This document shows positions 14,687-30,419 of a stretch of 64,000 nucleotides of DNA, one piece after another. The notes beneath the pieces were generated by a model that did not search any database, was not told the DNA's origin, and worked only from the letters and a program-made list of their open reading frames with translations. Source of the stretch: Myxococcales bacterium (GTDB lineage Bacteria; Myxococcota_A; Polyangia; Palsa-1104); NCBI GenBank assembly GCA_003170275.1, contig PNAM01000042.1, positions 59,936 to 123,935 of the forward strand, written 5' to 3'. Every line of letters starts with the position of its first letter. Position 1 is the stretch's first letter. The translations under genes and the position numbers were made by a program.

Positions 14687-15430
14687 ATGACCGGGTTGGT
14701 CCTCGCGCTGTTTGCCGCCGCCGCCGTTCTCGGCCTGAGCGAGGCCACGCGCGTGGGTCGGCGCCGCCGCGCGCGCGATCGGGTGGCGCGCGACGCGATC
14801 GCCGATCCCAACCTGCGTGGGCGCGCGATCACCGGGCTGCGCGCGGAGCTGGTGCGGCTGAAGGGACGCCCGAGCTGGACCACACGCTGGTTCGGCACCC
14901 GCTCGCTCGCGCAGGAGCTGTGCGAGATCCGACTGGTGCTGGCGCTGATGCTGCTCGTCGACGATCGGCCGGAGGACGCGCTGGAGAATCTGGTGCTGAT
15001 CGATCCCAACGCGATCCCCAAGCACCTGCAGGCGGTGCTGGCGATGCACGCGATCGAGGCGCACCTGCGGCTCGGCGAATGGCACGCGGCCGAGCGCGTG
15101 ATCGAAGGCTACCCGCCCGATGCGCTCAACGCCAACGGGCGCGCGATGCGGGCCAACGCCAAGGCGCAGATCCGGCTCGGACGCCAGGACGCGCGCGGCG
15201 CGTTGCGCTGTCTCGAAGAAGCGCAGCCGATCCCCGACGAGGTGCGCCCCGAGCTCGAGCTGACGCGGGCGCGCGCGCTGGCGGCCGAAGGGCGTGACGC
15301 CGCCGAGGTGTGGCGCATCCTGCAAGCGCAGCCGCGCGGCGCACTCGAGCTCCTGTTGCGACGCCACGGCGGGGAGGCCGCGACCCAGGTCGCGCGCCGC
15401 ATCCTCGACGGCGAGCCCGAGCGCCGCTAG
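14687..15430 (+). CDS. Membrane-anchored TPR-like protein, 247 aa
   Basis: An N-terminal hydrophobic helix (GLVLALFAAAAVLGL) is followed by a strongly basic patch (RVGRRRRARDR), giving an N-out signal anchor with a cytoplasmic domain. The rest is helical with degenerate TPR-like pairs (DDRPEDALENLVLI ... LRLGEWHAAERVIEG ... LGRQDARGALRCLEEA). Molecular role unknown; probably a scaffold. TAGAGT (14672-14677) lies exactly 9 nt before ATG with no Shine-Dalgarno sequence, a clear example of the leaderless-type start. The last four bases, CTAG, are shared with the stop codon of the giant surface-protein gene on the other strand. Confidence 0.65.
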   Translation: MTGLVLALFAAAAVLGLSEATRVGRRRRARDRVARDAIADPNLRGRAITGLRAELVRLKGRPSWTTRWFGTRSLAQELCEIRLVLALMLLVDDRPEDALENLVLIDPNAIPKHLQAVLAMHAIEAHLRLGEWHAAERVIEGYPPDALNANGRAMRANAKAQIRLGRQDARGALRCLEEAQPIPDEVRPELELTRARALAAEGRDAAEVWRILQAQPRGALELLLRRHGGEAATQVARRILDGEPERR

Positions 15431-29900: not shown

Positions 29901-30419
29901 GATCTGCGGCAGCGCGCGCGTCACCAGCTCGAGCAGGTGCGCGTGCGACTGCGGCGCGGAGGCCTGCGCCGAGATGTCGACCAGCACCGACATCGCCGCC
30001 AGCCGGCGCTCGAGCCGTCGCAACAGCGAGTCGCGCTCGCGCCTGAGCGCCACCTGATCGAGCGCGTTCTTGACGGTGATCACCAGGTCCGCCGTGTTCC
30101 ACGGCTTGCTCACGTAGCGATACACGCGGCCTTCGTTGATCGCCGCGATCAGATCTTCCGGATCGGTGTACGCGGTCAGGAGGATCGCGGTGATATCCGG
30201 ATCGAGCTTGCGCGCCTCGGCGATCAGCTCGAGCCCGGTCATGTTGGGCATCTTCTGATCGGTCAGGATCAGGTCGATCGGCGTCTCCTTGAGCACCTCG
30301 AGCGCGGCCGCGCCGGAGGTCGCCGGATGCACCTCGTAGTCCTTGCCAAACGTGCGCTTGAGCAGGTCGAGGATGATCTTGTCGTCGTCGACAACCAACA
30401 AGCGGGCGGGGTGTGGCAC
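26997..30419 (-). CDS. Hybrid histidine kinase with three receivers and a degenerate GGDEF domain, 1140 aa
   Basis: Cytoplasmic multi-domain sensor. In order: receiver 1 (1-125, Asp54 in LTDQKMP), a helical/GAF-like region (about 140-330), PAS (about 335-440), HisKA with His459 in VSHELRTPLTS, HATPase (about 520-680, with LLSNAIKFTPDGG and GTGLGLAISRGI), receiver 2 (about 720-840, VDLRMPGVDG), receiver 3 (about 850-970, VDVMMPDMDG), then a GGDEF-like domain (about 980-1130). The signature loop is AGDDF instead of GG(D/E)EF, so diguanylate cyclase activity is doubtful and c-di-GMP or partner binding more likely. The start is GTG 30419 with TATGAT exactly 9 nt before it. It is the first gene of the envelope/signalling operon and divergent from the giant TPR gene. 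Confidence 0.85.
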   Translation of the reverse strand: MPHPARLLVVDDDKIILDLLKRTFGKDYEVHPATSGAAALEVLKETPIDLILTDQKMPNMTGLELIAEARKLDPDITAILLTAYTDPEDLIAAINEGRVYRYVSKPWNTADLVITVKNALDQVALRRERDSLLRRLERRLAAMSVLVDISAQASAPQSHAHLLELVTRALPQIVTFDVAASLVVPPGPGGPGPASMHIHCPPPRVPHDPEHSGVDEATLLGVRDRAIEIYNHLNTGQAVNQDELLVNVSGERVRASERTGARTGAAHAEVLSSLYLPVVAPGAQGGVVGLIYVGSLSADAFNEDDEQNLEVFATQTAELLRRLSARILDERRKMELMVESMADGLIMTDSTGEVFLINPAARQMLGLGPGGPHDGTQPVTTKYLKDKLGFYPFDLVRSSHSREPVREELKLGDQFLHSIVSPVLDHAGAAVGVVVVLRDITERKALDQRKEEFVSIVSHELRTPLTSITGALDLVLNQYAPGLNDKQQRYIAMARDSCGKLNAIVDDLLDVAKVERGKFSMRMGAVDLADLARDAVERFRPAAEQKGIALGVRAPSHVEVRILGDQDRLTQVVNNLLSNAIKFTPDGGRIEVDIFGPEVSRSFVGLSIWNNGISIDEEHRERVFDKFEQIQSSNTRKVGGTGLGLAISRGIVEGHGGRIWVEGVPEGTRFVVTLPHTPPEVQDAAGLPASEPRPAIGGAQKSILVVDDDRYTTYIVKGMLIASGFRVWVAHDSDQALSIAREKKPDLITVDLRMPGVDGLALVEILKHDPETRKTPVVVLSVTDDRERAAQVGADAYLAKPIELGPLAESITRLLAEHGQRRQKILLVDDDPGIRMICRDVLEGHGYLAREAADGEKALAEARRFKPDLVLVDVMMPDMDGFQLAQKLRGDRETSLTPIIFLSARGQTADKVRAFKLGAEDYLVKPFDAAELVARVERALQRRDLELGASPTTRLPGSQAIEAEIDRRILSGGDFAFCYLDLDNLKAFNDYYGYAKADGVILQTGDIVREVVARVGATGDFIGHIAGDDFVFITTADHADRVCMTVIETFDRLVPLYYNKADRERGYIETNDRYGQLRRFPIMSVSIACATRENRRIVSHAELSAVAAELKQKAKAVPGSCYVKDGQVKFPRHPAAEARS

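Follow-up and report, generated by a model that had tools for sequence, protein, structure and literature searches.

The question raised by this locus is whether six adjacent genes on one strand work as a single envelope-signalling system, or whether only some of them belong together. The genes, A to F, occupy positions 15427-30419 of the window, i.e., the whole stretch of 64,000 nucleotides analysed here from a Myxococcales bacterium (assembly GCA_003170275.1, contig PNAM01000042.1). The comparison of this block with other Myxococcota leads to the conclusions that: (i) the conserved unit is a membrane histidine kinase, a FecR protein with an immunoglobulin-like (Ig) unit and an Ig/outer-membrane-barrel protein, found in at least 18 families, and not the six-gene set; (ii) A, D and F are specific to the lineage, the propeller D and the hybrid kinase A being additions; (iii) the best explanation of the core, and a moderately probable one, is a trans-envelope signalling module. 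The six genes are:

26997..30419, minus strand: gene A, soluble hybrid kinase, 1140 residues (domain search and orthologues)
25177..26991, minus strand: gene B, membrane histidine kinase, 604 residues (domain search and catalytic motifs)
24293..25180, minus strand: gene C, FecR-Ig protein, 295 residues (PF04773, transmembrane segment and Ig unit)
22769..24196, minus strand: gene D, exported beta-propeller, 475 residues (TIGR04275 repeats and signal peptide)
20670..22712, minus strand: gene E, exported Ig protein, 680 residues (Invasin_D3, Big_1 and A2M-like domains)
15427..20673, minus strand: gene F, giant surface protein, 1748 residues (signal peptide, DUF11, SdrD_B, Ig units and barrel)

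All six open reading frames have a strong third-position GC bias, and the domain searches agree with the composition that a first-pass annotation of the window had given to this one-strand block.

The distribution of the cassette was established from loci found via the FecR-Ig protein or the E protein. Genes were called with a self-trained caller, and many of the genomes are metagenome-assembled genomes (MAGs) with short contigs. A search of the class with C alone leaves a clean gap between full-length matches (E-value <1e-32) and partial ones (E-value >1e-19). Full-length FecR-Ig proteins are present in 49 of the 193 sampled genomes of the class, and 31 genomes of other Myxococcota classes have one at an E-value <1e-20. 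With C readable in 77 loci, a same-strand B-type kinase is no more than three genes away in 70 of them, and an E-type protein in 61, many of the exceptions being contig ends or failed gene calls. As a control, 91 genes farther away in those loci were compared, and none of them has a B-type kinase nearby. The annotation had taken the block for a sensor-controlled surface structure. The link between kinase, FecR protein and surface is strongly supported by this conservation of the neighbourhood; the conserved unit is both smaller and older than the annotation had it, and six genes as one fixed module are ruled out, since only B, C and the Ig/barrel protein recur widely.

The usual order in the class of the window is kinase, optional second kinase, FecR-Ig and E. 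Other classes usually begin with a REC-kinase, followed by the membrane kinase, FecR-Ig, E, a protein of ~1200 residues (those read start like a lipoprotein) and finally a short kinase. The internal order is rearranged in loci L098 and L095, where FecR stands ahead of the kinase. A second, paralogous cassette (kinase-kinase-FecR-Ig-Ig/barrel) is found in the genome of the window and in that of its nearest relative, G240 (L083, L097). In these paralogues a lipobox replaces the transmembrane segment of the FecR-Ig protein and a large lipoprotein comes next, with DUF11/CARDB repeats in L097. Upstream of the cassette in other classes, a divergent gene encodes a small lipoprotein in which D-x-N-x-DG motifs (calcium-binding-like) are repeated (L159:2979-3611, L162:3575-4231 and L175:3907-4512).

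The FecR protein and the giant protein are also connected by their Ig units, which are located as follows:

24296-24574, minus strand: Ig unit of C, C-terminal (domain search)
18448..18690, minus strand: Ig unit 1 of F, the one quoted in the first-pass annotation (profile comparison and searches)
18178..18420, minus strand: Ig unit 2 of F, directly before the barrel (profile comparison and alignment of F)
21888..22082, minus strand: Ig unit of E, weakly related to those of C and F (profile comparison)

The profile-profile probability is 97% for C vs. F unit 1, 99% for C vs. F unit 2 and 95% between the two units of F. Controls remain below 1%, and the Ig unit of C compared with the FecR domain of the same protein gives 0.07%. 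With a mixed C/F profile, the 8.17-Mb genome of the window has four places at an E-value ≤0.1, i.e., C, a paralogue of C and both F units. This search is circular, the four matched places being rows of the profile, and it was redone without the F rows. The resulting profile, made of FecR-Ig units only, has an F-type giant as its best non-FecR match in 6 of 7 whole genomes, with E-values of 7.5e-5 in the genome of the window, where the match falls exactly on F unit 1, and of 1e-8 to 6e-14 in the others. The claimed relationship of the C and F units is thus borne out by the profile comparison and by the non-circular search. That of the «DGRFA» unit in the 680-residue protein E holds in part: it is weakly related to C (76%) and to F unit 2 (85%), and no relation to F unit 1 is detectable (profile-profile probability <1%).

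Conservation of the gene order had been named beforehand, besides the relationship of the Ig modules, as a point on which the proposal for the block would stand or fall, and two relatives do share this order. The nearest one found, G240 (a Myxococcales MAG), belongs to the same family, and G249 to the same class. One contig of G240 carries a divergent gene for a giant TPR protein, a potassium channel gene, A, B, C, D and the start of E; a second one carries the end of E, F and then phosphofructokinase, matching the order in the window. The channel gene (inward-rectifier type, L081:8740-9621, minus strand), which lies between the TPR giant and A, is absent from the window. G249 has A to D on one contig, E and F on another. 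A gene for a fibrinogen-like domain protein (L057:6008-6703, plus strand) sits there between E and F on the opposite strand. F comes after E in all three genomes.

The hybrid kinase A contains three REC domains, in the order REC-GAF-PAS-HisKA-HATPase-REC-REC-GGDEF. Its orthologues in G240 (76% identity) and G249 (60%) occupy the same place on the same strand. The signature of the GGDEF domain is AGDDF, and on this sequence its activity is uncertain. The propeller D matches TIGR04275 at 175 bits. Its syntenic counterparts are only 43% (G240) and 37% (the other relative) identical to it. A stand-alone copy in the same genome (G000:C48:23589-25043, L099) is 77% identical, and because this copy is closer than the syntenic one of G240, a recent duplication or conversion of D is suggested. 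By these identities D is the member least tied to the block.

Within the block, A and B are separated by 5 nucleotides, C and D by 96, D and E by 56. The start of B was placed at 26991, directly after the stop of A; C was taken as 24293-25180, the longer, mechanically reported reading frame running through B out of frame. The two overlaps described in the annotation are both confirmed at 4 bases:

25177..25180, minus strand: GTGA, stop of B and start of C, read as translational coupling
20670..20673, minus strand: ATGA, stop of E and start of F, from the coordinates of the reading frames

Promoter and terminator scans of the block gave no pattern exceeding chance. On one side, a giant TPR protein of ~3778 residues (30522-41858, plus strand) is encoded divergently and shares an intergenic space of ~100 bp with gene A. 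On the other side, the gene for a 247-residue protein (14687-15430, plus strand) is convergent with F, their ends overlapping by 4 bp; this protein has a sub-threshold match to SctY, a model of type III secretion chaperones.

The topology of C does not fit the classical role of FecR proteins. Its FecR domain is located as follows:

24674-24955, minus strand: FecR domain of C (PF04773, 42.8 bits, cut-off 24)

C has a single N-terminal transmembrane segment with about 5 residues ahead of it, and no cytoplasmic domain. Nearly all 71 cases of the family share this layout, with either a single N-terminal transmembrane segment or a lipobox and without a cytoplasmic domain. C as an anti-sigma FecR is ruled out: there is no cytoplasmic domain, no FecR_N match and no sigma gene.

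The kinase B has an extracytoplasmic dCache-like domain followed by HAMP, HisKA and HATPase. Its catalytic motifs are intact (H-box H395, N-box N509, G1 D540), and the N-box Asn and the G1 Asp are both kept in 47/47 relatives of the class. In the readable loci of other classes (L158-L189) the H-box His of the membrane kinase is present in 23/23, the N-box Asn in 0/23 and the G1 Asp in 0/23. In one such example tested, Pfam gave no ATPase domain in the membrane kinase, and the adjacent REC-kinase and short kinase do have one. Judged from these motifs, the kinase of other classes is a putative split kinase, with a membrane protein lacking the ATP site beside an intact soluble REC-kinase. The sensor, the FecR protein and the barrel stay together without catalysis by the membrane kinase, which argues that selection acts to keep them connected. 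The distances of C correlate with those of the kinase ectodomain at r 0.72 (partial 0.51) and with those of the catalytic part at 0.67 (partial 0.39), a weak indication that C may track the ectodomain more than the catalytic part.

The outer-membrane end differs between lineages. Homologues of E outside the family of the window are strings of Ig domains ending in a C-terminal 8-strand barrel, according to a structure model with a predicted local distance difference test (pLDDT) of 86 overall and ~90 in the barrel. This barrel was identified from the strands of the model and not from a Foldseek match; what Foldseek matched were strings of Ig domains, among them invasin and InvD. The E of the window and that of G249 (read to its end) have an Ig domain at the C-terminus, without the 8-strand barrel. 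L095 and L098 have no E, and a separate small barrel-like gene follows instead. In the window lineage the place of the small barrel is taken by F, whose barrel is located as follows:

15427..18177, minus strand: barrel of F, about residues 833-1748, ~40 predicted strands, aromatic C-terminus

F consists of three DUF11 stretches, SdrD_B, the two Ig units (unit 2 is present in the F homologues aligned) and this large barrel (model pLDDT 72). A profile search of the PDB gave nothing significant with the F barrel, nor with E. Foldseek brings the F model close to SDBC/SlpA, TonB-dependent receptors, LptD and SprA (E-values 1.6e-8 to ~1e-5), at template modelling scores (TM-scores) of only ~0.2 for a moderate model; the match to the type IX translocon SprA is weak (0.10-0.16). 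A precise placement was thus dropped, and only «large outer-membrane barrel» can be supported. The matches to the LapA-type retention module NF033682 (24.2 bits, cut-off 50) and to the MSCRAMM SdrD model NF012181 (18.3 bits, cut-off 2500) fall below cut-off, and MSCRAMM SdrD has only the SdrD_B domain in common. Homologues of F (DUF11/SdrB plus large barrel) are matched in 70 of 237 genomes of the phylum, some by the SdrB region only. Elsewhere they are solitary genes, many encoding 3500-5000 residues, and the junction with the kinase-FecR operon is seen only in the window lineage (the window, G240 and G249). Thus, F was probably recruited to the operon, where it seems to stand in for the small barrel that is usual elsewhere.

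Taken together, these features can be arranged into a relay. An outer-membrane barrel with periplasmic Ig domains would meet the periplasmic, inner-membrane-anchored protein C; the partner would be F together with E in the window, and in most relatives just E, which there carries a small barrel itself. C would then bind the extracytoplasmic domain of B and set its activity. The signal would pass on to soluble kinases and receivers (A in the window; in other loci, a REC-histidine kinase or a second, short kinase), the output being phosphotransfer or GGDEF. The contacts of C with B and with F/E through Ig and FecR domains, the direction of the signal, the ligand or stress and the regulated targets are inferred. 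In the annotation the barrel was a structure under kinase control. A role as the outer-membrane end of the sensor is more likely, because sensor and FecR are retained together with a barrel where the giant protein is missing, and even where the membrane kinase has no ATP site left. An even chance is given to the wider claim of a phylum-wide class of trans-envelope receptors in which FecR/Ig couples a barrel to a kinase, with a large branch where an ATP-less phospho-acceptor is driven by a soluble REC-kinase, and with the sensor barrel swapped for a giant adhesin-like one in the window lineage.

Several points weigh against a trans-envelope module. The neighbourhood could reflect co-regulation only, and the C-B and C-F/E interactions are predictions. 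By Pfam, E and F have no plug or TonB-receptor domain, which bears on how a signal would pass. The loci come partly from related species, so that the counts are not independent. F-type proteins are solitary in many genomes, with no FecR nearby, and in G047 and G274 the gene of an F protein lies apart from a complete cassette; therefore, F is not an obligate part of the module. In another reading, the kinase and FecR-Ig would be sufficient to sense the periplasm or peptidoglycan, and E, F and D would be regulated output only, a surface structure under kinase control as the annotation had proposed: D and F are not in the general cassette, and the DUF11/SdrB stalk repeats of F are typical of surface adhesins. 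This is nevertheless unlikely, since an Ig/barrel protein stands near the FecR gene also in loci without a surface stalk, the Ig units of the FecR and F proteins are specifically related, and no DNA-binding regulator is found inside the block.

The related Ig units could also be explained by an assembly checkpoint, in which the periplasmic Ig of the barrel protein is a docking site for FecR-Ig, which alerts the kinase to failed export or barrel insertion. The conserved barrel-proximal unit of F does resemble the FecR-Ig unit, as expected if the two units bind one another or share a periplasmic binding surface. However, short E-type barrels are conserved though they need no special export, and a chaperone or protease gene was not seen conserved in the cassette, which makes this reading quite improbable. 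A neighbourhood due to chance or history, without functional link, would agree with the apparently recent duplication of D, and the gene order of the window would not by itself prove function; it is very improbable given that the adjacency recurs across so many families, even with a rearranged internal order (L098, L095). The trans-envelope module is thus retained as the best explanation of the core.

Rcs is one of the few known cases where histidine kinases of Gram-negative bacteria learn of events at the outer membrane. QseEGF is another (PMC6075780). The kinase-FecR-barrel operon, present in about a quarter of the sampled genomes of the class, would add another architecture for outer-membrane sensing, with clear parts, in which FecR domains apparently act outside sigma-factor control. 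It offers natural experiments (kinases without ATP binding, a giant surface protein in the place of the sensor barrel) and a functional anchor for the otherwise uncharacterised giant DUF11-barrel proteins. Searches of an open-access library gave no description of a kinase-FecR-barrel system; the cassette is widespread and, as far as found there, undescribed.

Among known proteins, F belongs with the DUF11/SdrB large-barrel proteins of Myxococcota by its DUF11 repeats, SdrB, Ig unit and large barrel, and differs from these solitary homologues in being joined to a kinase-FecR operon in the window lineage. With SDBC/SlpA, TonB-dependent receptors, LptD and SprA, the F model has a large beta-barrel in common, and the PDB profile search found no sequence relation to them.

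Control of a kinase by a periplasmic partner is known from QseG, the outer-membrane lipoprotein partner of the kinase QseE (PMC6075780). As predicted for the cassette, a membrane-anchored periplasmic partner encoded beside the kinase acts via its periplasmic loop. QseG is not known to have FecR or Ig domains. Unlike the cassette, QseE-QseG-QseF has no barrel protein, and its operon includes the gene of the response regulator QseF. In Campylobacterota, a FecR protein is clustered with a CHASE2 adenylate cyclase and a TPR protein (PMC9239204). As in the cassette, a FecR-domain envelope protein is encoded with a non-sigma output, and FecR domains may thus serve other outputs. In contrast to the cassette, the output is cyclic AMP, the FecR protein is described as an outer-membrane protein, and no Ig/barrel partner is reported.

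The closest parallel is the cell-surface signalling system FecA-FecR-FecI (PMC9249621). Both have an outer-membrane barrel, a periplasmic FecR domain anchored in the inner membrane and a signal into the cytoplasm (predicted for the cassette). However, no extracytoplasmic function (ECF) sigma factor was found among the six genes by Pfam/NCBIfam domain searches, the partner is a membrane histidine kinase, and C lacks a cytoplasmic anti-sigma domain. The barrel protein carries Ig domains without matching the TonB-receptor family; neither E nor F has a Pfam/NCBIfam match to a plug or signalling domain of TonB-dependent receptors, Foldseek giving a generic large-barrel likeness. Membership is excluded because the sigma factor and the anti-sigma domain are absent. 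By analogy, the cassette most likely works like FecA-FecR-FecI, with a histidine kinase in the place of the sigma factor.
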